Assembly (NCBI GenBank): GCA_023957475.1
Contig: JAMLHA010000012.1
Coordinates: 40,940 to 104,939, forward strand
Direction of reading: 5' to 3'
DNA length: 64,000 nucleotides
DNA from: Crocinitomicaceae bacterium
GTDB taxonomy: Bacteria > Bacteroidota > Bacteroidia > Flavobacteriales_D > Crocinitomicaceae
Shown here: positions 21,767-63,187 of the stretch, piece by piece
How positions within the stretch are numbered: the stretch's first letter is position 1
Layout of the letters: every line of letters starts with the position of its first letter
Notes under the pieces: generated by a model
Databases searched by the model: none
Seen by the model: only the letters and a program-made list of their open reading frames with translations
Told to the model about the DNA's origin: nothing
Translations under genes and position numbers: made by a program

Positions 21767-21784
21767 TAATAAAAATTGATTCAA

Positions 21785-22738
21785 ATGTCTGAAAAAGAAG
21801 AATTAGACCAATTGGTCAGCCATTATAAAGCTTTAAAAAACGAAATTCACAAAGTGATTGTCGGTCAAGATGAAGTTGTGGATCAAGTGTTGATTTCCAT
21901 TTTTTCACGCGGTCACTGTTTATTGGTTGGTGTACCCGGATTAGCAAAAACATTGTTGGTGAATACCATTGCACAAACATTGGGACTTTCATTTAACCGT
22001 ATTCAATTTACACCCGATTTAATGCCTTCTGATATTATTGGCTCCGAAATTTTGGATGAATCGCGTAATTTTAAATTTATAAAAGGACCAATTTTTAATA
22101 ACATTATTTTGGCAGACGAAATCAACCGTACGCCACCCAAAACACAGTCTGCATTATTGGAAGCTATGCAAGAGCGATCAGTAACAGCAGCAGGGAAAAC
22201 ATACAAATTGGATGCGCCATTTTTTGTATTGGCCACTCAAAACCCAATTGAACAAGAAGGGACATATCCATTGCCAGAAGCTCAATTAGACCGTTTTATT
22301 TTTAATATTTGGGTGGACTACCCTACTTTTGTTGAAGAAATGGCTATTGTAAGAGCAACAACAATTGACAACACTGTCCAATTGAATCAGGTATTGACAG
22401 CCGAGCAAATTGTTCGTTACCAAGAGTTGATTCGAAGAATTCCTGTTGCGGACAATGTGTTGGAATATGCAGTAAAGTTGGTTGCAAAAACCCGAATAAA
22501 TTCGGATTATGTAACCCCAATTACAAAAGACTATATAACATGGGGAGCGGGCCCTCGTGCATCTCAATATTTAATTATCGGAGCTAAATGTCACGCAGCG
22601 TTGAATGGAAAATATTCTCCTGATATCGAAGATGTAAAGGCAGTTGCGAAACCAATTTTACGCCATCGATTGGTTAGAAATTATCGAGCAGAAGCGGAAG
22701 GATATTCTATGGAACGAATTATTGAAGAGTTGATGTAA
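21785..22738 (+). CDS. MoxR family AAA ATPase
   Basis: This protein of about 317 residues is a MoxR-type AAA+ ATPase: Walker A GVPGLAKT, Walker B ILADEINR, sensor 1 [22 protein letters not shown], and the C-terminal lid ([12 protein letters not shown]). MoxR ATPases act as chaperones or activators for VWA-domain partners, but here no DUF58 or VWA gene follows: the next gene is convergent and unrelated, five bases away. I prefer ATG 21785 to the TTG at 21776. The usual partner genes may be elsewhere or may have been displaced by the insertion of the segment that begins at about 22740. Confidence 0.92.
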
Positions 22739-22743
22739 ATTGA

Positions 22744-23884
22744 TTAATCTGTTAATTTAAGATTGGATTTGTATAATATTACCCCAACAATTATACCTAT
22801 TAGGAAACCATAAGGTAATCCAAACGAAATCATTCCAACAGTAATAGCAATCCAAAATTCTCTTTTAGAATGATTCAAATCTTGAATTAAAGCGATTAAC
22901 GCCATTGATTCAACTAATAGTAATATGCCTAAAATTTGTTTGGGAAACAAGTTTAAAATTACATGTAAATTATTACTGAATAACAATCCTATAAGTATGA
23001 AGAATATCCCTTGAATTATAACTGAACCACCTGCCCTACCTCCAAAAGTATATTGACCAATAATACCATTTGAACCATGACAAACTGGGATACCCCCAAA
23101 AATTGAACTTATAAAGTTCATAAAGGAATAGGTGAAACCTATTTTTTTTATGGTTATTTTTTTTTCGGGAAATAAATCGTTCACTAATTGCTTACTAGCT
23201 AACACAGAGTTTCCTAAAGACAATGGAATTTGAGGTAATGCTAATAATAAAAATCCTTGCATCAAGTTTTCTAGTGTAAATTTATTGAGCTTAAATACTG
23301 TTGAATTACTCATTAAATCTAATGAAATAAAAGAGAGCTTACTTTTAAAAAATAAAGCAAAAGATATTCCAATGATTAACAGAATTAAAGCTGCTGGATA
23401 ACGTTTGTTTTTTAAAAAAATAAAAACAATTGAAAACCCAACAATTACAAGTAACCATTCTAGCCAACCATTACTAATTGAAATGTAATTTTTAAAAGCA
23501 ACTTGAGCTAAAGTAATTCCAAGCCCTAGTTGTATCCCTCTAATTACAGATTTGTGTATGAATTTAGCTAAAAAATCAAGAAAGCCAGTAATTGTTAATA
23601 GCAACATGATGCATGCAATGACTAATCCACCAGCCCATACTACATCAGCATTTAATTGATTTGCTATTACAATTGTTGCGACAGCTTTAAGCGGCTGGAC
23701 AGCCATTGGAGTCCCGTATATAATACCTGTCAAAATCATCAAAAGACCATAAGTTAAAAAAAACAATGGTTACATTAAAATTCGATACAGATAGCATTCC
23801 AATAACTAAAGGAAGTATAACTCCTAAATCTCCTATAGATCCTGCGAACTCGTTTGTGTTAAAAAAACGTGATATTAATTTCAT
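22744..23884 (-). pseudogene. MOT1/SulP-type molybdate or sulfate transporter, frameshifted
   Basis: Two overlapping minus-strand frames together make one transporter. The N-terminal part (23884 to about 23757) reads SRFFNTNEFAGSIGDLGVIL; the rest continues from about 23765 as LTYGLLMILTGIIYGTPMAV, with the PMAVQPLKAVATIVIAN motif of the MOT1-type (MFS_MOT1) putative molybdate/sulfate transporters. The break lies in a tract of eight A on the plus strand (23756-23763); seven would restore the frame. About ten hydrophobic segments follow. It could be a mutation, programmed slippage, or a sequencing error. Codon use (TTA-rich) differs from the upstream moxR gene. Placed beside narI, it probably supplied molybdate for molybdenum cofactor. 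Confidence 0.8.
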
Positions 23885-23944
23885 TATTTAACGTTATTTA
23901 TTTTAAAATACATCGTAAAGTAACTAAATGGATAGATTTTAATA

Positions 23945-23960
23945 TATGATGTATATCATA
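23945..23960. promoter_or_regulatory. 16-bp palindrome, Crp/Fnr-like operator candidate
   Basis: TATGAT-GTAT-ATCATA is a perfect inverted repeat with six-base arms. It resembles the Crp/Fnr half-site spacing (TTGAT-N4-ATCAA) and lies about 60 bases upstream of the minus-strand transporter start at 23884. The regulator is inferred, not shown. Confidence 0.4.
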
Positions 23961-23998
23961 AAAAAAATGGGGTATTCAAAGAATGCCCCATTTTTTTT
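23961..23998 (-). terminator. Intrinsic terminator after narI
   Basis: AATGGGGTATTC (23966-23977) pairs with GAATGCCCCATT (23981-23992) with one G-U pair, flanked by A and T runs, so it could act in both directions. It lies just past the narI stop (24019) on the minus strand. Confidence 0.85.
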
Positions 23999-24018
23999 AC
24001 CTAACCTACTAAGTTAAA

Positions 24019-25116
24019 TCAATGGTTTCTCGGTTTTTTACCGAAATTGTATTTGCGAGACACCCTGATTATCTTTGGATTCCAATTCCAAACGACAATT
24101 TGATATTTTCTCCATATATAATCTATTGGAGCAACCAAAAAGTGAACAAATCTGGTAAATGGAATTATACCAATAATTAAAAATGCAGAAATAATATGAA
24201 CTTGAATCAACCAAGGCATTTCTACAACTGCGTTAATATCTGGATTAAATGAAAAGATTGATCTCAAATAAGGTGTTAAAACACTTGAAAACCAAGAAGA
24301 CCCCCATCTTACAAAGAAAGCAACTCCTAAACCTGAAATAATTTGAGTAAATAAAACAGTATATACCAGCATATCCATTTTATTAGCAACAACAAGTAGT
24401 TTTTGTGAGCCTAATCTTCTTTTAATTAATAGAATAAGACCTAGAAATGCTGATAAACCAAATGCAAATGAAGAAATTTCTAAAATTAATAATCTAACAG
24501 GTTCACCATTCCATGCGATAACAGCTCTTGGAAAAAGAAATGCAATCAAGTGGCCAAAGAAAAGAATGATTATTCCCCAATGGAAAGGTAAACTTCCCCA
24601 ATACAATTTTTTACCTTCTAAAAATTGGGATGATAATGAGGAAACTTGAAAACCTCTCTTTTTATAACGATAAATGCTTCCAATTAAGAAAATTAAAAAT
24701 GATAAATATGGCAATACTACAAACATTAAAATTCCTAACATACTTGTTTTTGAATTCAATCCTTGAACTAAGAAATAGATTATAAGTATTGCTAATACAA
24801 AATAAGCTAGGAATATTAATGAATAATTAGGGATTGAATGAGGTTCAGAATGATAGCCCATTTCTTTAATTAGGTTATTCATTTTTCTTTTATACCTAAA
24901 TAACCAAACAAAAATAAATAAAATCAATGCTGAGGCACCAAAAATGAATATTGAATTAGAACTAGTTGCCTTATTATTTTGGCTAACTGCCTCAGCATTT
25001 GACACGTTATCAGTGTTTGTTGAAACTTCTTGATTGTTGGTTATATAAGAAATGAAATCTTTTATTTCATCTTCGGATAATTGAGCAAATGGAGGCATAG
25101 TACGGAACGAAATCAC
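24019..25116 (-). CDS. narI: Nitrate reductase gamma subunit (NarI) with a cut cytochrome c remnant at its N terminus
   Basis: The C-terminal ~220 residues are NarI, the di-haem b membrane subunit that passes quinol electrons to NarHG. Haem ligand His pairs are visible in PFHWGIIILFFGHLIAF and VHIISAFLIIGIIPFTRFVHF, and the tail APIDYIWRKYQ is typical. Before it lie two extra membrane helices (IFIFGASALILFIFVWLF and LIFLAYFVLAILIIYF) and, at the very start, MPPFAQLSEDEIKDFISYIT, which is the end of a class I cytochrome c domain (axial Met in MPPF). The CxxCH part is missing: homology stops near 25100, where a TonB-receptor remnant begins on the other strand, and a stop codon lies just upstream. 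The GTG at 25116 is only the first available start. No narG, narH or narJ is present in the window. Confidence 0.85.
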   Translation of the reverse strand: MISFRTMPPFAQLSEDEIKDFISYITNNQEVSTNTDNVSNAEAVSQNNKATSSNSIFIFGASALILFIFVWLFRYKRKMNNLIKEMGYHSEPHSIPNYSLIFLAYFVLAILIIYFLVQGLNSKTSMLGILMFVVLPYLSFLIFLIGSIYRYKKRGFQVSSLSSQFLEGKKLYWGSLPFHWGIIILFFGHLIAFLFPRAVIAWNGEPVRLLILEISSFAFGLSAFLGLILLIKRRLGSQKLLVVANKMDMLVYTVLFTQIISGLGVAFFVRWGSSWFSSVLTPYLRSIFSFNPDINAVVEMPWLIQVHIISAFLIIGIIPFTRFVHFLVAPIDYIWRKYQIVVWNWNPKIIRVSRKYNFGKKPRNH

Positions 25117-25280
25117 CAGATTTCACATTGTTAAATTTAGGTTTTTCAACAAAGGTGTGTGATTTTATGAGAGTTGATATTGGTCTAAATAATGTTTTTG
25201 ATAGAAATTACACCATTGTTGAAGGATATCCTCAAGAGGGTCGGAATTTATCTGTAACTCTAAGATTTTTTAATAAATAA
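25101..25280 (+). pseudogene. 3' remnant of a TonB-dependent receptor
   Basis: The frame ending at TAA 25278-25280 encodes about 59 residues that match the last two or three strands of a TonB-dependent outer-membrane receptor: SPDFTLLNLGFSTKV, then MRVDIGLNNVFDRNYT and EGYPQEGRNLSVTLRF. The NNVFDRNY and GYPQEGR motifs are characteristic. A TAG in the same frame lies at 25098-25100 and nothing receptor-like precedes it; instead the cytochrome c/narI coding on the other strand starts there. The gene has lost its 5' part. It lies 20 bases before the lipoprotein gene at 25301, which was probably its operon partner. Confidence 0.8.
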
Positions 25281-25300
25281 TCATTCTAAATATAATTATC

Positions 25301-25909
25301 ATGAAAAAAGTAAACATTTCAATCATGGTTCTTGCTCTACCATTTTTCTTTACAATGTGTACAGAAAAAAAAGAAAATGCAATTCCTGTAAAAGAAAGTA
25401 AAGAACACAGCCATTCAAATAAAGAAGTTGCTTGTGGGATTCCATTATCTCGTGAGGATAGTTTAAAATATATCAGTAAAACAGTTGAAGTTAATGGAGA
25501 TGTGAAAAATCAGTTACTTTTAACTGTTGATTCCTTAAAGTTAATGAAAATACATACTATAGAGAATTTTACTGTAGTATGTCAAAGTGGAGCAAATATG
25601 AAAGAGGATAAAACGTGTAAAGGAGTTCTATTACGGGATATTTTAGAGAAAGCAGAAATAATTCAAAACAATCATAAAGATAGAAATTTTTATATTGTTG
25701 CGAGAGCTTCAGATGACTATAAGGCCACATTTTCTTGGGCGGAGATTTTTAATAACCCAACAGGAGATGAAGTGTTTGTTTTATTTGAAGAGAATGGAGA
25801 ACCAATTCAACGACAAGGTGAAATGATTTTAATTTGTAGAAATGACATTAAAACAGGCCCTCGTCATGTGTATTGGCTAAAAAGTATAGAAATCAATAGA
25901 GTGGAATAA
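25301..25909 (+). CDS. Lipoprotein with a possible molybdopterin-oxidoreductase-like domain
   Basis: The 202-residue product has a lipoprotein signal (ISIMVLALPFFFTMC) and a His-containing linker (KEHSHSN). About residues 55-200 (VNGDVKNQLLLTVDSLKLMK, then CKGVLLRDILEKA, and PRHVYWLKSIEI) resemble the small oxidoreductase molybdopterin-binding fold found in sulfite-oxidase relatives, but without a clear cofactor Cys set, so it may be a binding protein rather than an enzyme. Cysteines occur at CQSGANMKEDKTCKG. It sits directly after the TonB-receptor remnant and near narI and a molybdate-type transporter, which favours a molybdenum- or nitrate-linked role. The family call is tentative. Confidence 0.6.
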   Translation: MKKVNISIMVLALPFFFTMCTEKKENAIPVKESKEHSHSNKEVACGIPLSREDSLKYISKTVEVNGDVKNQLLLTVDSLKLMKIHTIENFTVVCQSGANMKEDKTCKGVLLRDILEKAEIIQNNHKDRNFYIVARASDDYKATFSWAEIFNNPTGDEVFVLFEENGEPIQRQGEMILICRNDIKTGPRHVYWLKSIEINRVE

Positions 25910-25916
25910 AAAAAGA

Positions 25917-25953
25917 AAAGAGGGTGGTTTTAACTTGAATAACCACCCTCTTT
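25917..25953. terminator. Bidirectional terminator between the lipoprotein gene and efp
   Basis: A perfect 13-bp stem, AAAGAGGGTGGTT (25917-25929) with AACCACCCTCTTT (25941-25953), lies between two convergent genes. Confidence 0.85.
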
Positions 25954-25974
25954 AATAATAAATTCAATCAACAA

Positions 25975-26541
25975 CTATCCTTTCACGCGTTCAACGTATG
26001 TTCCAGTTCTTGTATCAATTTTTACAACTTCCCCGTTGTCGATAAAAAGAGGAACTCTTACTTCTGCACCTGTAGCAATTGTTGCTGGTTTCATTGAGTT
26101 TGTAGCTGTATCTCCTTTTACACCTGGTTCTGTATAAGTAATTTCAGAAATGATGTAAATTGGAAGTTCAACAACCAAAGGCATTTCTTCTTCTGCATGG
26201 AATAAAATGTTACATACCAACCCTTCTTGTAAAAACAAAGGTTTTTCAATCATGTTTCTTGGTATATGAACTTGTTCAAATGTTTCATTATTCATAAAAA
26301 CAAATGCATCCGCTTCTTCATAAAGATATTGGTATTCTCTGTTTTCAATACGAACAGGTTCAATTTTGTGACCAGCTGAAAAAGTATAGTCAAGAATTTT
26401 TCCAGATTCAATTTGACGCATTTTTGTACGTACAAATGCTGGTCCTTTACCTGGTTTTACGTGTTGGAATTCAATTATTTGACACAATTTATCGTTGTGC
26501 TTGATACATAATCCATTTTTAATATCTGCCGTTGTAGCCAT
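25975..26541 (-). CDS. efp: Elongation factor P
   Basis: The 188-residue protein is EF-P, which relieves ribosome stalling at polyproline stretches. The N-terminal KOW-like domain has HVKPGKGPAFVRTKMR, with Lys at the loop tip where lysyl or rhamnosyl-type modification occurs in other species; two OB domains follow and the C terminus has TNSMKPATIATGAEVRVPLF. Length is standard. A TATATTTG promoter element lies upstream at 26584-26591. Confidence 0.97.
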   Translation of the reverse strand: MATTADIKNGLCIKHNDKLCQIIEFQHVKPGKGPAFVRTKMRQIESGKILDYTFSAGHKIEPVRIENREYQYLYEEADAFVFMNNETFEQVHIPRNMIEKPLFLQEGLVCNILFHAEEEMPLVVELPIYIISEITYTEPGVKGDTATNSMKPATIATGAEVRVPLFIDNGEVVKIDTRTGTYVERVKG

Positions 26542-31550: not shown

Positions 31551-32350
31551 TTATTTAAAATTAATCAAACTTTCTTTGATTAGAATTGCCAGTTTACGGG
31601 CACTTCCCCATCTAAATCCACTGATTAAACCAGATGATTGGACAACACGATGACAAGGAATTAAAATAGCAATAGGATTACTTCCAATAGCAGTTCCGAC
31701 AGCTCGGACGGTTGATGAATTAAATTTGCAATTTCTTTGTAAGTTGTAATAGATCCAAATTGAATTTGCAAAAGCGCATTCCATACTTTTAATTGAAAAT
31801 TGGTACCCATCAAATGGAATGTAATTGGCTTGTTTTTATCAATTTTGTAATTTATGAAATCTGCATAAAGTTGATGGAAAATAGCTTGTTGCTCAATAAA
31901 ATTTGCGTTTGTAAAATGTGATTTTAGTTTATTAATCGCTTCAACCTTATTCTCTTCAAAATGAATATAACATACGCCACTATCTGTTGATGCAATTACC
32001 ACTTTCCCAAATTGAGTTTCATTAAACGAGTAATGAATGTTCAATGAAGAAATAGCTTCTGTGTTGAGTGGAATGATTTTAAAGTTTGGTAATTCAATGT
32101 ATTGATTTTCAGTTTTTAAACTAAATATATCTAACTGAATAGTTGAAGTAATTTTAGATTTTATGAAGTTACCAGTTGTTAGCTTTATGAAATCATCAAA
32201 TTCAACTCCTGACCATTTTTTTACTGCTTGATAAATTTCGTTTTCGGTACAATTTAACTGTACACAAACGGAATTAATCAATTTTTCTGATTTAGAGAAG
32301 ATCTGATGTTCTGTTAGTAGTTTCTCTATGATATAGTAATCTGTATTCAC
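31551..32350 (-). pseudogene. Ada/Ogt-type methylated-DNA-protein cysteine methyltransferase, frameshifted
   Basis: Two minus-strand frames make one product. The first part has an AraC-like N-terminal region (KLINSVCVQLNCTENEIYQA, about residues 20-70), then an Ogt N-domain and the start of the methyltransferase core LKVWNALLQIQFGSITTYKE. The rest lies in another frame: STVRAVGTAIGSNPIAILIP and the active site PCHRVV with SGFRWGSARK. The break falls near 31705-31712 within CCGTCCGAG, where the usual PSAVRAVG of the family is disrupted; about five bases seem lost, and no homopolymer is involved, so mutation is likelier than sequencing error. GTG 32350 is my start; the TTG at 32377 would lie inside the carB terminator. 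The Ada N-terminal zinc domain is absent. Confidence 0.72.
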
Positions 32351-32363
32351 AAAAATGTTGAAA

Positions 32364-32389
32364 TAAAAAACGGGCAAATAAATGCCCGT
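32364..32389 (-). terminator. Intrinsic terminator after the first carB
   Basis: ACGGGCA (32370-32376) and TGCCCGT (32383-32389) form a stem around an AT-rich loop, with a T run on the minus strand just past it. It lies 18 bases after the carB stop at 32407. Confidence 0.85.
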
Positions 32390-32406: not shown

Positions 32407-35220
32407 TTACCTTGATAAGTGCATGTTTCTTTTTGCATAAATATCCATAAAGAAAGGATCTCTGAGGTCTTTTATAAACTGGATTGCTTCACCAGTAGAT
32501 TTCATTTCAGGACCTAGTTCTTTTTTCACTTCAGGGAACTTATTGTATGAGAATACAGGTATTTTGATAGCATATCCTTCTTTTTTCGGATTGAAAGTAA
32601 AATCTGTAACCTTTTTCTCACCCAACATTATTTTTGTTGCATAGTTCACATACGGCTCGTCATAAGCTTTTGCAATGAAAGGTACTGTTCTTGAAGCACG
32701 TGGATTGGCTTCAATTACATATACTTTATCATCTTTTACAACGTATTGAATATTGATTAAACCAACAGTTTTCAATGCTACAGCCACCTTTTTAGTAATC
32801 TCAATGATTTGTGTCATCACTAAATCTCCTAAATTATATGGTGGGAGAACGGCATAAGAATCACCTGAGTGAATCCCAGCTGGCTCGATGTGTTGCATAA
32901 TACCAATGATATAAACATTTTCTCCATCACAAATAGCATCAGCTTCGCATTCAACAGCACCACCAATAAAGTGATCCAATAGAATGTGATTTGCACCCAT
33001 TTCTCCAATAATATCAACAACGTGTTGCTCTAACTCCTCTTCATTGATGACGATTTTCATCTTTTGTCCACCCAATACATAAGAAGGGCGAACCAATAAT
33101 GGAAAGCCTAAATCTTTTGATAGCTCCAACGCTTGTTCGGCACTTTCTACTACTCCGTATTTAGGGAATAGTACATTGTTTTCTTCCAGCATTTTAGAAA
33201 AACGTCCTCTATCTTCAGCTAAATCTAAAGCTTCAAAACTCGTGCCAATAATTGGAATACCGTAGCGATTTAACTTCTCAGCTAATTTCAACGCTGTCTG
33301 ACCTCCCAACTGAACGATTACACCTTCTGGTTTCTCGTGTTGAATGATGTCGTAAATATGTTCCCAAAACACTGGTTCAAAATACAATTTATCAGCGGTA
33401 TCAGCATCGGTTGAAACAGTTTCTGGATTACAGTTGATCATGATGGTTTCATAACCACATTCTTTTGCGGCAAGTACACCATGAACACAAGAATAATCAA
33501 ATTCAATACCTTGACCGATTCTATTGGGTCCAGAACCCAAGATAACCACTTTTTTCTTTGGAGTGACAGGGCTTTCATCAGCAACACCGAATGTTGAATA
33601 ATAAAAAGGAGAATATTCTTCTAATTCAGGTGCAAATGGATCCACTACGTTGAATACACGTTTTACACCCAATTCCTCTCGCTTTTTATAAACTTCTGAT
33701 TCCAAACATCTCAATAAATGAGCAATCTGACGATCAGCGTATCCTCGTTCTTTTGCTTCAAGCATTAACTCACGAGAAATATCATCAATGCGGTGTTTTT
33801 CAATTTTTCGTTCCAAGTCAATAAGTTCTTCAATCTGACGTAAGTACCAAATATCGATTTTAGTTTTGTCTTGAATTGTTTTAAACGGAATACCTAATTT
33901 AATGGCATCGTAGATATGGAAAAGACGATTCCAAGAAGGATTTTCCAATGATTGTAAGATTTCTTGTTGATTGGTCAATTCTTTTCCGTCTGCACCCAAT
34001 CCATTTCTTCCTATTTCAAGTGATTGACATGCTTTTTGTAGCGCTTCTTGGAAGTTGCGACCGATTCCCATGACCTCACCAACAGATTTCATTTGAAGGC
34101 CAAGTTCACGATTAGCACCTTTGAATTTATTGAAATTCCAACGAGGAATCTTAACGATAACGTAATCAAAGTTAGGTTCTTTGAAATTAAATTCAGCACC
34201 TCCACTCTTTTTCAATACCTCTCTAAGTGTGTATCCTAAGGCTAATTTAGTAGCGATTTTGGCAATAGGAAAACCTGTTGCTTTTGAAGCCAATGCTGAT
34301 GAGCGAGAAACACGTGGATTGATTTCAACTACCAAAACTTCAGAATCATCTGGACTAACGGCAAATTGAACATTGCAACCACCCACAAATTCACCCATTG
34401 AACGAACCATTTTAAAGGCTTGTTCTCTCATTTTTTCGTATGTCTCTTCAGCCAAAGCCAAAGCTGGGGCAACTGTTATGGAATCACCAGTGTGGATCCC
34501 CATTGGGTCAAAATTCTCAATGCAGCAAACCACCATCATGTTGTCTTCTGCATCTCGAATAACTTCATATTCATATTCTCTCCAACCAATTAACGCTTTG
34601 TCAATCATTACTTCGTGGATAGGAGAAAGTTCTAAACCTCTTTCTAATAATGTGTCAAATTCTTCTTTTGTGTGAACAAATGCTGCTCCTGCTCCACCAA
34701 GTGTAAAAGAGGAACGAACACACAATGGAAAACCAAATTTTTGAGCAATTTCTTTACCTTCTAAGAATGATCGAGCTGTTTTTTGAGCTGGAAGTTTCAT
34801 TCCAATTTTTTCCATTGCTTCTTTAAACAATTCTCTATCTTCAGCAATTTTGATTGCATCGACATCAGCACCTATCATTTGAACGTTGTATTCTTCCCAA
34901 ATACCCATTTCGTCACACTTCATCGAAAGATTTAACGCTGTTTGTCCACCCATTGTAGGTAAAACCGCATCAATCTTATGTGTTTTAAGAATCTCAATAA
35001 TTGATTCAGGTTCAAGAGGTTTCAAATAAACATTATCAGCGGTCATTTTGTCCGTCATGATAGTTGCTGGATTTGAATTGATTAAGGTAACCTCAATACC
35101 CTCTTCTCTAAGTGCTTTGGCTGCTTGAGTTCCAGAGTAATCGAACTCACACGCTTGGCCGATAACGATTGGTCCGCTCCCTATAATAAGAACAGACTTA
35201 ATTGAATTATTTTTTGGCAT
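32407..35220 (-). CDS. carB: Carbamoyl-phosphate synthase large subunit, downstream copy
   Basis: The 937-residue protein makes carbamoyl phosphate from bicarbonate, ATP and ammonia delivered by CarA. It contains two ATP-grasp halves, marked by GSGPIVIGQACEFDYSG at the start and GSGPNRIGQGIEFDYSC near residue 563, and the linker region between. The sequence ends after the second synthetase half (ELGPEMKSTGE, DPFFMDIYAKRNMHLSR) and lacks the ~130-residue MGS-like regulatory domain of E. coli CarB, so UMP or ornithine control as in E. coli is not expected. It lies 201 bases after carA and has a promoter element of its own. A second, similar copy precedes carA. Confidence 0.95.
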   Translation of the reverse strand: MPKNNSIKSVLIIGSGPIVIGQACEFDYSGTQAAKALREEGIEVTLINSNPATIMTDKMTADNVYLKPLEPESIIEILKTHKIDAVLPTMGGQTALNLSMKCDEMGIWEEYNVQMIGADVDAIKIAEDRELFKEAMEKIGMKLPAQKTARSFLEGKEIAQKFGFPLCVRSSFTLGGAGAAFVHTKEEFDTLLERGLELSPIHEVMIDKALIGWREYEYEVIRDAEDNMMVVCCIENFDPMGIHTGDSITVAPALALAEETYEKMREQAFKMVRSMGEFVGGCNVQFAVSPDDSEVLVVEINPRVSRSSALASKATGFPIAKIATKLALGYTLREVLKKSGGAEFNFKEPNFDYVIVKIPRWNFNKFKGANRELGLQMKSVGEVMGIGRNFQEALQKACQSLEIGRNGLGADGKELTNQQEILQSLENPSWNRLFHIYDAIKLGIPFKTIQDKTKIDIWYLRQIEELIDLERKIEKHRIDDISRELMLEAKERGYADRQIAHLLRCLESEVYKKREELGVKRVFNVVDPFAPELEEYSPFYYSTFGVADESPVTPKKKVVILGSGPNRIGQGIEFDYSCVHGVLAAKECGYETIMINCNPETVSTDADTADKLYFEPVFWEHIYDIIQHEKPEGVIVQLGGQTALKLAEKLNRYGIPIIGTSFEALDLAEDRGRFSKMLEENNVLFPKYGVVESAEQALELSKDLGFPLLVRPSYVLGGQKMKIVINEEELEQHVVDIIGEMGANHILLDHFIGGAVECEADAICDGENVYIIGIMQHIEPAGIHSGDSYAVLPPYNLGDLVMTQIIEITKKVAVALKTVGLINIQYVVKDDKVYVIEANPRASRTVPFIAKAYDEPYVNYATKIMLGEKKVTDFTFNPKKEGYAIKIPVFSYNKFPEVKKELGPEMKSTGEAIQFIKDLRDPFFMDIYAKRNMHLSR

Positions 35221-35272
35221 TTAACTAAGGTTTTTCAATTTGATGTTTGCTACGTTACAAACAAATTGAGTA

Positions 35273-35280
35273 CAAATTTA
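35273..35280 (-). promoter_or_regulatory. TAnnTTTG -7 element of the downstream carB
   Basis: On the minus strand TAAATTTG lies 52 bases before the ATG. The sequence from here to the start is recognisably similar to the leader of the other carB (TTTGTT-y-GTAACG and CAAATTGAAA are shared). Confidence 0.5.
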
Positions 35281-35421
35281 ATTTAAAACAACATTGATTG
35301 AAGGAAATACTTAAAAAGTTTTTTAACAAAATAAGTAAAATTGTTGAAAACTAAAAACAGCGAGCCATAAGTCTGTGTTTGTTATATTATTATCAGTTAA
35401 GTTGAATGAAATGAGTGTTTT

Positions 35422-36525
35422 TTAAACTTTTGCTTTCAAAATATTTGCAATAAATTGATCAAACAAATAACGAGAATCGTGTGGCCCAGCAGATGCTTCT
35501 GGATGGTATTGAACAGAAAAAACAGGTTTGTCTTTAATTGCTAATCCAGCTACAGTGTTGTCATTTAGATGAATATGTGTCAACTCCACAATTGGATTGG
35601 ATTCAATACTTTCTTTTGATACTACAAACCCATGATTTTGGGAAGTGATTTCACATTTTCCAGTCTTTAAATTTAAAATTGGGTGGTTGATTCCTCTGTG
35701 ACCATTAAACATTTTTTCGGTTTTTAAACCTAGTGACAATCCTAATAATTGATGTCCCAAACAGATGCCAAATACGGGTTTTCCTGCGTTTGAAACTTCT
35801 TTCACTAATTGAATGGAATCAGCCATTACTCCAGGATCACCAGGTCCATTTGATAACATGTATCCATCTGGTTCAAAAGTGTCTAATTCTTGTAAAGAAG
35901 TATGCATTGGAAATACTTTTACATGTGCTCCTCGTTCAACTAAGCAACGAATAATATTTTTCTTAATTCCAAAATCAACTACAGAAATTTTACAAATGGG
36001 ATTTTCTGGTTTAACTTCGTAAGCTGTTTTTGTGCATACTTTAGAAGATAATTCCAATCCACTCATAGACGGAACTTTGGATAATTGAGTTTTTAAATCT
36101 TCAATAGAAGTACCATCAGAAGAAATAATCGCATTCATTGCTCCTCTGCTTCGAATATGTCGAACCAATGCTCTTGTATCAATATCAGAAATACCAACTT
36201 TATTGTTTTTTAGCATTAAGTTTTCCATTGAATCATTTGCAGCTACACGAGAAAATGTTTTGGAAAAGTTTTTTGTAACCAAACCGGCAATCATCATTGA
36301 GTCGGATTCTATTTCATCGTCATGCACACCATAGTTTCCTATATGAGCTGTTGTCATAACCAATATCTGACCATAATAAGAAGGATCGGTAAAAACTTCT
36401 TGATACCCTGTCATTCCTGTGTTGAATGCAATTTCTCCGGTAGTTGTTCCAATTTTACCTATGGGTTTTCCATGGAATATTGTTCCGTCCTCCAAAATCA
36501 ATACTGCTGCTGTCTCGTTTTTCAT
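35422..36525 (-). CDS. carA: Carbamoyl-phosphate synthase small subunit
   Basis: The 367-residue glutaminase subunit has the N-terminal GKIGTTTGEIAFNTGMTGYQE motif and a class I glutamine amidotransferase domain with the nucleophile Cys in FGICLGHQLLGLSLG and the His/Glu pair in QYHPEAS. It hydrolyses glutamine and channels ammonia to CarB. It lies between two carB copies on the same strand: 50 bases after the upstream copy and 201 bases before the downstream copy. One CarA may serve both. Confidence 0.97.
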   Translation of the reverse strand: MKNETAAVLILEDGTIFHGKPIGKIGTTTGEIAFNTGMTGYQEVFTDPSYYGQILVMTTAHIGNYGVHDDEIESDSMMIAGLVTKNFSKTFSRVAANDSMENLMLKNNKVGISDIDTRALVRHIRSRGAMNAIISSDGTSIEDLKTQLSKVPSMSGLELSSKVCTKTAYEVKPENPICKISVVDFGIKKNIIRCLVERGAHVKVFPMHTSLQELDTFEPDGYMLSNGPGDPGVMADSIQLVKEVSNAGKPVFGICLGHQLLGLSLGLKTEKMFNGHRGINHPILNLKTGKCEITSQNHGFVVSKESIESNPIVELTHIHLNDNTVAGLAIKDKPVFSVQYHPEASAGPHDSRYLFDQFIANILKAKV

Positions 36526-36575
36526 TTCTTAATATTTAGTATAAGCCCAAAAAGGCTCATTGTCTTTTGTTGTTA

Positions 36576-39392
36576 TTATTTTGATAAATGCATGTTTCTT
36601 TCTGCATAAATCTTCATAAAGAATGGATCTCTTAAATCTTTTATAAATCGAATGCCTTCACCTGTTGATTTCATTTCTGGGCCTAATTCTTTTTTTACAT
36701 CTGGGAATTTTTCATAAGAAAAAACAGGGATTTTTACAGCATATCCTTCTTTTCTAGGATTAAAATTAAAATCTTTCACTTTCTTTTCTCCTAGCATAAC
36801 TTTCGTTGCGTAATTCACATACGGTTCATCGTAAGCCTTAGCGATAAAAGGAACGGTTCTTGATGCACGTGGATTGGCTTCAATCACATAGACTTTATCG
36901 TCTTTTACGGCGTATTGTATATTGATTAATCCAACTGTTTTTAATGCTTTTGCAACTTTTTTCGTGATTTCTTCTATTTGTGTCATCACCAAATCTCCCA
37001 AATTGTATGGTGGAAGAACAGCATAAGAATCTCCAGAATGGATACCCGCAGGTTCGATGTGTTGCATGATACCTATGATGTAAACATCTTCTCCATCACA
37101 AATGGCATCTGCTTCACATTCGATGGCACCACCAATAAAGTGATCCAACAAGATGTGATTGGCTCCCATTTCTCCAATGATGTCCACAACATGCTGCTCC
37201 AATTCTTCTTCATTGATGACAATTTTCATCTTTTGTCCACCCAACACGTAAGAAGGTCGAACCAACAACGGAAATCCCAAGTCTTGAGAAAGCTCCAGTG
37301 CTTGTTCTGCACTTTCAACTACACCATATTTAGGAAAAAGTATGTCATTTTCTTCTAATAATTTAGAAAAGCGTCCTCTATCTTCTGCTAAATCTAATGC
37401 TTCAAAACTCGTGCCAATAATTGGAATGCCGTAACGATTTAGTTTTTCGGCTAATTTCAACGCCGTTTGACCACCCAATTGGACAATGACACCTACTGGT
37501 TTTTCATGTTGGATAATATCGTAAATATGTTCCCAAAACACGGGTTCGAAATACAATTTATCGGCTGTATCAAAATCCGTAGAAACAGTTTCTGGGTTGC
37601 AGTTAATCATGATGGTTTCATAACCGCATTCTTTTGCTGCAAGTACGCCATGCACACAAGAATAATCAAACTCAATACCTTGTCCAATTCGGTTGGGGCC
37701 TGAACCAAGTACAACAATTTTTTTCTTAGTTGAAACAACGCTTTCGTTTTCGTATTCAAAAGTGGAATAATAATAAGGTGTTTGTGCTTCAAATTCACCA
37801 GCACAAGTATCTACTAATTTATAGACACGGTTGATTCCAAGCTCATCCCGTTTTTTGTGTACTTCTGATTCCAAGCATTTCAATAAGTGCGCAATTTGAC
37901 GATCGGCATATCCTTTTTGTTTGGCCTCAAACAATAATTCTTTTGGAATGGTATCTAAATGGTGTTTTTCCACTTTACGCTCCAATTCAATCAACTCTTC
38001 AATTTGTTTCAAAAACCAAAGATCGATTTTTGTTTTTTCTTGAATGGTTTTAAATGGAATACCTAATTTGATAGCATCATAGATGTGAAACAAACGATTC
38101 CATGAAGCATTTTCTAAAGAATATAGAATTTCTTGTTGGTTGGTTAATTCTTTTCCGTCTGCACCCAATCCATTTCGATTAATCTCCAATGATTGGCATG
38201 CTTTTTGAAGTGCTTCTTGAAATGAGCGACCAATACCCATCACTTCGCCAACAGATTTCATTTGCAAACCCAATCTGCGATCTGTTCCAGGGAATTTATT
38301 AAAATTCCAACGAGGGATTTTTACGATCACGTAATCCAACGTTGGTTCGAACATTGCCGAAGTTGTTTTAGTAATTTGATTTTTCAATTCGTCCAAACGA
38401 TAACCGAGAGCTAACTTGGAAGCGATTTTAGCAATTGGATAACCCGTAGCTTTTGATGCCAATGCCGAAGAACGGGACACGCGTGGGTTGATTTCAATGG
38501 CAATAATATCTTCATTTGCATCTGGACTTACGGCAAATTGAACGTTGCAACCACCAGCAAAATTACCAATGGAACGCATCATTTTGATGGCCATGTCACG
38601 CATTTTTTGAAAAGTTGTATCCGAAAGCGTCATTGCAGGAGCAACAGTAATTGAATCTCCAGTATGAATCCCCATTGGATCAAAATTTTCTATTGAACAA
38701 ACAATTACAACGTTGTCATTGGCATCGCGCAATAGTTCCAATTCAAATTCCTTCCATCCCATCATTGCTTTATCAATCATCACCTCGTGAATAGGAGATA
38801 ATTGCAAACCTCTTTCCAATAAGCTATCAAATTCTTTTGGATCGTAAACAATAGAAGCGCCTGCTCCACCTAGCGTATAGGAAGCACGAATACAAAGAGG
38901 AAATCCAAATTCTTGAGCAATTTCCTTTCCTTCTAAGAACGATTTGGCTGTTTTTTGCGGTGCCATTGGTACGTCAATTTTACCCATTAACTCCCGAAAT
39001 TGCTCTCGATCTTCTGTGATAGCGATAGCTGTTGTATCAACTCCAATCATTCGCACACCGAATTCTTCCCAAATACCCATTTCTTCGCATTTCATGGCAA
39101 GATTCAATCCTGTTTGTCCACCCATTGTTGGTAAAACAGCATCAATTTTGTGTTTTTGGAGAATTTCAATAATGGAATTAGGCTCTAACGGAAGTAAGTA
39201 AACATTATCTGCAACCACCTTATCCGTCATGATTGTTGCTGGGTTAGAATTAATTAAAGTGACTTCAATGCCTTCTTCACGAAGAGAACGTGATGCTTGA
39301 GAGCCTGAGTAATCGAATTCGCATGCTTGGCCGATTACAATTGGTCCGCTACCTATAATTAAAACGGACTTAATAGAATTATCTTTTGGCAT
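36576..39392 (-). CDS. carB: Carbamoyl-phosphate synthase large subunit, upstream copy
   Basis: This 938-residue protein is a paralogue of the CarB at 32407-35220 with the same two ATP-grasp halves and the same lack of the C-terminal MGS-like domain. The N-terminal third differs at many positions (for example VADNVYLLPLEPNSI here against TADNVYLKPLEPESI), while long stretches from about residue 560 to 870 are nearly identical, as if homogenised. Catalytic motifs appear intact in both, so neither looks like a pseudogene. It is the first gene before carA in transcription order and has its own TAAATTTG promoter element. Confidence 0.95.
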   Translation of the reverse strand: MPKDNSIKSVLIIGSGPIVIGQACEFDYSGSQASRSLREEGIEVTLINSNPATIMTDKVVADNVYLLPLEPNSIIEILQKHKIDAVLPTMGGQTGLNLAMKCEEMGIWEEFGVRMIGVDTTAIAITEDREQFRELMGKIDVPMAPQKTAKSFLEGKEIAQEFGFPLCIRASYTLGGAGASIVYDPKEFDSLLERGLQLSPIHEVMIDKAMMGWKEFELELLRDANDNVVIVCSIENFDPMGIHTGDSITVAPAMTLSDTTFQKMRDMAIKMMRSIGNFAGGCNVQFAVSPDANEDIIAIEINPRVSRSSALASKATGYPIAKIASKLALGYRLDELKNQITKTTSAMFEPTLDYVIVKIPRWNFNKFPGTDRRLGLQMKSVGEVMGIGRSFQEALQKACQSLEINRNGLGADGKELTNQQEILYSLENASWNRLFHIYDAIKLGIPFKTIQEKTKIDLWFLKQIEELIELERKVEKHHLDTIPKELLFEAKQKGYADRQIAHLLKCLESEVHKKRDELGINRVYKLVDTCAGEFEAQTPYYYSTFEYENESVVSTKKKIVVLGSGPNRIGQGIEFDYSCVHGVLAAKECGYETIMINCNPETVSTDFDTADKLYFEPVFWEHIYDIIQHEKPVGVIVQLGGQTALKLAEKLNRYGIPIIGTSFEALDLAEDRGRFSKLLEENDILFPKYGVVESAEQALELSQDLGFPLLVRPSYVLGGQKMKIVINEEELEQHVVDIIGEMGANHILLDHFIGGAIECEADAICDGEDVYIIGIMQHIEPAGIHSGDSYAVLPPYNLGDLVMTQIEEITKKVAKALKTVGLINIQYAVKDDKVYVIEANPRASRTVPFIAKAYDEPYVNYATKVMLGEKKVKDFNFNPRKEGYAVKIPVFSYEKFPDVKKELGPEMKSTGEGIRFIKDLRDPFFMKIYAERNMHLSK

Positions 39393-62297: not shown

Positions 62298-62654
62298 ATC
62301 AATTTAGGTCTATCTTTTAAATAAGTTATCAAGACTTATTAACGATATATTTTTAATTGATAAAAGGGATTGCGTTTTATTTATTTAATTGTATCCTCCA
62401 TCAATGTTTATTTTGTTGACAAAAAATGATGATGATTTTGTTTTAATTTCTATGAAATTTATCATTAATCCATTTTGTAGGGTTATTGATAATGTATTCA
62501 GAAATGCGGTGGTAAGATTGTTCATTACGAATTATATGTTCCCAATAATTTCGTTGCCACAATTTTCCATTAAATGGTTCCCAGCCCAAATTTTTAACAC
62601 CACGAATATATTCATTGGTGGACATTGTTTTGAACCATTGTATCACCCGATGTA

Positions 62655-62680
62655 GCGGACGAACCTACGTGTTCGTCCGC
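62655..62680. repeat. Perfect hairpin at the edge of the minisatellite
   Basis: GCGGACGAAC (62655-62664) and GTTCGTCCGC (62671-62680) are perfect arms around a six-base loop. With flanking bases the match extends to a 19-bp arm with a two-base bulge (about 62643-62689), because one minisatellite unit occurs in inverted orientation. Confidence 0.65.
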
Positions 62681-62857
62681 CATCGGGTGTTCGTCCGCCA
62701 TCGGGTGTTCGTCCGCCATTGAATGTTCGTCCGATACCATTTGGTTATTTGGTGTATCGTATTTATTTAACATCACATGGTTATTCAATATTGATTGGTT
62801 GTAGGGTGTGATTTGATTGTTTGGTGTTGGATGATTGTTTGATATTGAATGTTCATT
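62660..62857 (-). repeat. 18-bp minisatellite encoding about eleven hexapeptides in the transposase
   Basis: Residues 111-176 of the N-terminal transposase frame read as eleven six-residue units: NEHSIS, NNHPTP, NNQITP, YNQSIL, NNHVML, NKYDTP, NNQMVS, DEHSMA, DEHPMA, DEHPMA, DEHVGS. Units at the distal end are nearly identical at DNA level, those nearer the HUH motif are degenerate, so expansion seems recent at one end. Confidence 0.7.
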
Positions 62858-63187
62858 CAATATCGGGGGAATGTTCAATTTATTGAGGCAGACACGTTGG
62901 TCTACCTCTACGGGGGGACCAACGTTTTCTATGATACAATGGAAATGATTGGGCATTATTATCATTTCGTGACATTTGATATCTGGAAATTTACTTTCTA
63001 ATGCGTAATACCATTTTTCAATCATTTGCCCGGCGTCATTCAATATCATTTTGGAATTTTCAATTCTACCAAATCTACAAATTCTATCTTGGCAACAAAT
63101 TGTAATAAAATACATCCCTTTTTGCGAATAATCATAATTCTTTAGACGGATACTACGACGATGATGTTTTTCAGGGTTATATTTCAT

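Follow-up and report, generated by a model that had tools for sequence, protein, structure and literature searches.

In the window, by which we mean the whole 64,000-nt stretch of DNA analysed here, two divergent genes are cut at a common point: a minus-strand gene for the nitrate reductase membrane subunit NarI, and a plus-strand gene for a TonB-dependent receptor of which little more than the end is left. A gene for a PF00174 (oxidoreductase molybdopterin binding) protein follows the receptor remnant, a gene for a MOT1-type molybdate transporter lies beside narI, and the whole group is flanked by MoxR and EF-P genes (Table 1). The names MoxR, EF-P, PpiC, exopolyphosphatase, ABC permease and histidine kinase, as used in this work, were read from translations, without a family match. 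In the MOT1 gene the 5' part lies in a different frame from the remainder, with the switch at an A8 tract, and the MOT1 protein of the same-family genome G132 matches the main frame of the window only from its residue 45; this frameshift may be either a mutation or a base-calling error in the tract. Elsewhere in the window, and again with names read from translations, we observed a methylguanine-methyltransferase-like gene (31661-32377, minus strand) whose C-terminal part lies in another frame, without a long homopolymer where the frame switches, two carbamoyl-phosphate synthase large-subunit-like genes (937 and 938 aa) around one small-subunit-like gene (32407-39392, minus strand), and a small transposase-like gene (62612-63187, minus strand) with a repeat-rich C-terminal half (ADEHPMADEHPM).

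Table 1. Features of the truncated island and its two flanks, in window coordinates.
Feature	Position	Strand	Basis
MoxR-type AAA ATPase gene, bordering the slot on the left	21776..22738	+	Name read from translation; synteny with G001 and G002 at 88-89% identity
MOT1-type molybdate transporter gene with a frameshift at the A8 tract 23756-23763	22744..23884	-	PF16983, 124.7 bits
Remaining 3' part of a cytochrome c-NarI fusion gene, with the whole NarI domain but without the cytochrome c domain	24019..25098	-	PF02665, TIGR00351, CxxCH in relatives
Junction, two bases assignable to neither side with certainty	25099..25100		Base-by-base comparison with relatives
TonB-dependent receptor gene, final 59 codons and stop	25101..25280	+	Similar to the C-terminus of receptors encoded near PF00174 genes
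Intact PF00174 (oxidoreductase molybdopterin binding) gene, 202 aa	25301..25909	+	34.7 bits (cut-off 24)
EF-P gene, bordering the slot on the right	25975..26541	-	Name read from translation; synteny with G001 and G002 at 90% identity

The minus-strand reading frame at 24019-25122 contains the NarI membrane domain in full (PF02665, 202.7 bits) and also scores above the cut-off of TIGR00351 (116 versus 105.55 bits), while no N-terminal cytochrome c domain is present: CxxCH is absent and a stop codon lies just upstream. The first residues of the frame are similar to nothing: whole-genome searches gave 14 matches outside the window, of which 12 set in at query residue 7 or 8, immediately ahead of the methionine of MPPF, and two (245-aa frames in genomes G044 and G365) at query residues 127 and 122. 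Domain searches and alignments thus bear out the sequence-only reading, which had placed the start of the NarI frame at about 25098 at MPPF, without CxxCH and with a stop just upstream. For comparison, the best 120 of 2098 NarI hits were collected, with 7999 candidates scored. Within their first 150 residues, 118 of these 120 proteins carry a CxxCH motif, the two exceptions being the window protein itself and P0009, and the other 119 measure 416-502 aa, with a median of 473. P0009 was considered as a relative with a normally truncated NarI and rejected, as it begins inside the domain on a contig of 2034 bases. Among the best 120 of 2098 hits, a truncated NarI is therefore the normal state in none of the 119 other proteins.

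On the plus strand, no Pfam family was found in the 59-aa receptor remnant, neither plug nor barrel, and the counterpart receptor at locus L054 has both domains (PF07715 and PF00593). A scan with the PF00174 alignment, in which 80 loci were kept, detected a receptor end in 39 of them: in 32 the receptor lies directly upstream of the PF00174 gene, 15-169 nt before its start, and in seven, from Chryseobacterium and Epilithonimonas, about 2.9-4 kb downstream. For the other 41 loci no receptor end was found in the fetched DNA. Most receptor frames (31 of 39) are 668-703 aa long. Among the distant downstream receptors, the matches to the two ends are spaced by 2031-2070 nt in L108, L109, L113 and L117, and by 1421 nt in a Chryseobacterium MAG (L114:6593-8013), 880 nt in Epilithonimonas tenax (L115:10833-11712) and 826 nt in Chryseobacterium indologenes (L121:10665-11490); the last three receptors look about 0.6 to 1.2 kb shorter. 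The PF00174 protein of the window shares 62-69% identity with 20 aligned relatives. A search of the window's own genome for the rest of the receptor returned only the 59-aa remnant matching itself (E <= 1). Likewise, the N-terminal half of a receptor, taken from genome G065 as query, was not found there, the sole match at E <= 1e-10 being another receptor with 25% identity in a 750-aa frame.

The junction between the two remnants was then resolved by base-by-base comparison with 12 narI relatives and 31 receptor relatives, the latter matching at E <= 1e-16. NarI homology stops at the ATG of MPPF (25098), with 16-24 of 30 bases identical from this ATG and 4-8 of 24 before it, which is about chance level. 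Receptor homology begins at the TAC at 25101, and not earlier, in all 31 relatives, with a mean of 18.0 of 30 bases identical from this codon and 4.8 of 24 before it. Both frames had been described as losing homology at about 25098-25104, which is right to within a few bases; as for the receptor, previously taken to start at GTKSPDF, the plus frame and its normal stop at 25280 stand, and the homology begins one residue (Y) earlier. Unbroken identity past the end of homology amounts to 0 bases in ten of the 12 narI relatives, 2 bases in the other two, and 0 bases in all 31 receptor relatives. Microhomology was judged from these relatives, standing in for the parents of the join, and on this basis the join appears to be one with little or no common sequence. 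Composition breaks were looked for alongside repeats and Rfam families; a repeat search of the remaining DNA gave no repeat of at least 14 nt at the join, the Rfam search found no family, and no insertion-sequence gene lies at the join among the listed reading frames. The locus thus displays what marks a deletion scar, namely the truncation of two genes at a common point, intact homologues of both elsewhere, and end points which, as judged from relatives, have no long repeat.

Such a picture might also arise from an assembly error, whereby the segment between narI and the receptor was skipped or lost, or two sequences were joined, and the living strain would be intact. Judged again from relatives, the join offers no common stretch to a k-mer assembler, which speaks against this explanation, and so does the genomic setting. 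MoxR and EF-P are also neighbours in the two other same-genus genomes searched (G001, 99% complete; G002, 87% complete), at a distance of 243 nt and 241 nt, respectively, versus 3236 nt in the window. The order ABC-permease-like gene, exopolyphosphatase-like gene, PpiC-type gene, MoxR, EF-P, histidine kinase and small membrane protein is matched in both, which carry an extra gene or two within the syntenic stretch. As NarI, the PF00174 protein, MoaA and MoeA are unmatched in G001 and G002, the stretch 22739-25974 forms an island within a single slot, either gained in the window lineage or lost in the others; to the two short spacers it shows only short, weak local matches. With both sides of the join in a single slot, between proper neighbours that belong together, the two sides are not unrelated sequences; halves drawn from unrelated contigs would hardly be expected to show such neighbours on either side. 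Moreover, against G001 and G002 none of the nine syntenic genes surrounding the slot is itself frameshifted, the sole two-frame match being the opening 61 residues of an over-long frame, which falls in an overlapping upstream gene.

Nitrate reductase and PF00174 enzymes require the molybdenum cofactor, and we were curious to know what else of this system the genome holds. The window genome (G000) comprises 3,141,131 bases in 33 contigs and is listed as 100% complete with a contamination of 0.02. At E <= 0.001, it yielded no match to PF00384 (narG-type gene), PF06463 (C-terminal domain of MoaA), PF01967 (MoaC) or PF03453 (N-terminal domain of MoeA). No convincing NarH was found either: the NarH of genome G015, used as query, gave one 81-residue match of 30% identity inside a 1088-aa frame, which we do not take for NarH. 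Of 59 genomes searched, five bear NarI, and G000 is the only one of these to lack MoaA as well as MoeA, G044 having a match to MoeA and none to MoaA. As tested by PF00384, NarH, MoaA, MoaC, MoeA and the 5' half of the receptor, the missing segment is absent from the rest of G000, and in an assembly listed as complete this further argues against an assembly error.

On the other hand, the remaining NarI and PF00174 proteins look little harmed, as would also be expected if the living strain were intact. The NarI remnant deviates at 2 of 105 positions with 97% or more conservation among the others, the eighth highest value among 120 proteins (mean of the others 0.7%, maximum 3.8%), and the PF00174 protein at none of 64 near-invariant positions (rank 47 of 120). 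These few changes fit a recent deletion, and an assembly error equally. An assembly error could likewise be read from the NarI cluster (90% identity), which is present on one contig only, and from the MOT1 frameshift, which falls in a homopolymer and is accompanied by a frameshift in a second gene of the window. Taking both sides together, we consider an assembly error unlikely; the chimeric join that the sequence-only reading had offered as its alternative is weakened by the fitting flanks and the missing common stretch, and survives as one form of such an error. If the deletion is real, the same few changes imply that it is most likely fairly recent on the scale of conserved-site changes.

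What the locus may have looked like before can be surmised from relatives. Genomes G128 and G132, read in the orientation of the window, carry MOT1, narI, narJ, narH, narG and a cytochrome c gene, all on the minus strand, with moa/moe genes further left of MOT1, and the window retains MOT1 beside narI on the same strand. In G132, the position of the break is separated by about 6.8 kb from the start of the cytochrome c gene, and the window receptor is short by about 1.8-1.9 kb; a single deletion would thus have spanned about 8.7 kb or more, provided that both genes started out whole and adjoined a complete operon. The G128 and G132 stretches that were fetched do not include the receptor pair. 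The left half of the intact arrangement is therefore seen in G132 and G128 and the right half in the 32 loci, both together in no relative examined, and the six fetched stretches that contain both modules (L019, L056, L059, L072, L124 and L130) have them convergent or on the same strand; for this reason the back-to-back ancestor is one that we infer.

This missing order, which a single deletion needs, speaks in favor of two separate events, in which the remnants would have been juxtaposed by inversion, insertion or successive losses. As the cofactor genes are absent as well, there may have been more than one loss. Nevertheless, no more than 2 bases separate the ends of the two homologies, for which one event is the simplest account, and an insertion-sequence gene is lacking among the listed frames at the join; we therefore deem two separate events very improbable.

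We conclude that, very probably, one deletion took away the 5' parts of narI and of the TonB receptor gene together with the intervening DNA, in a nitrate/molybdenum island that is itself likely being lost. The 2-base junction common to both genes, the missing genes, the MOT1-narI order and the single slot make a real deletion the most likely reading. A deletion of both 5' parts had already been proposed from the sequence alone, and it now gains support from the intact relatives, from the absence of a narG-type gene and of a convincing narH, from the order in G128 and G132, and from the one slot. In the proposed course, narI, narJ, narH, narG and the cytochrome c gene of the ancestor would have read to the left and the TonB receptor gene with its molybdopterin partner to the right, back to back. 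End joining, with no long repeats involved, would then have removed the intervening DNA, and the cofactor genes may have been lost in the same event or in others. With no cofactor being made, what remains of the island is predicted to be inactive and at an early stage of decay. As far as the alignments tell, the remnant NarI and the molybdopterin-type protein depart little from their conserved sites, while MOT1 is frameshifted.

The event is ordinary in kind, and the locus is a clean example of it, caught at a clear stage, which illustrates how a genome may come to lose a respiratory island. Gone are the core enzyme and, within the scope of the searches, the cofactor pathway; a membrane subunit, a transporter and a molybdopterin-type protein are left as readable orphans. 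Gene-by-gene annotation would label this bacterium as NarI-positive and molybdate-importing, although the catalytic subunit, MoaA, MoaC and MoeA were not found. In the parts of the literature that we consulted, nothing was recognised as this nitrate/molybdenum island, which does not show that no such case is in print.

A second truncation of the same gene pair was encountered in G065, on a Brumimicrobium contig. There, a 236-aa frame (L019:17576-18286) consists of the plug part of the receptor joined in frame to the 66 C-terminal residues of the PF00174 protein, and Pfam detects the plug only. The join carries TATAAAG, a motif that some receptor relatives and some PF00174 relatives also have at the corresponding position and that both parents of this fusion may therefore have had in common. 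One could speculate that the receptor beside the molybdopterin-type gene is a recurrent target of loss, being cut in the window, fused by a different cut in G065 and, in the form of its more distant downstream counterpart, seemingly shortened in L114, L115 and L121, that its loss is selected, for instance by phage or bacteriocin entry, and that it triggers the loss of the molybdenum enzymes rather than following it; we give this idea very little credence.

Compared with known systems, the window shares its NarI domain with the narGHJI operons with a cytochrome c-NarI fusion that are found in same-family genomes (such as G132, G128, G015 and G065), and with those of G132 and G128 it also shares MOT1 beside narI on the same strand. 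The family meant here is Crocinitomicaceae, as judged from the names that relatives' proteins carry. In contrast to these operons, its slot has no narG, narH or narJ, and its NarI has no cytochrome c domain. The pair of TonB receptor and PF00174 protein known from Flavobacterium species and Bacteroidota MAGs is likewise recognizable, as the last 59 receptor residues are located directly upstream of the PF00174 start, like in the 32 loci, whereas about 610-640 receptor residues are missing from the window. The fused receptor-PF00174 gene of G065 resembles the window in being cut in the same gene pair, but differs in its end points, its in-frame fusion and the TATAAAG at its join, and its genome has retained the nar and the moa/moe genes.
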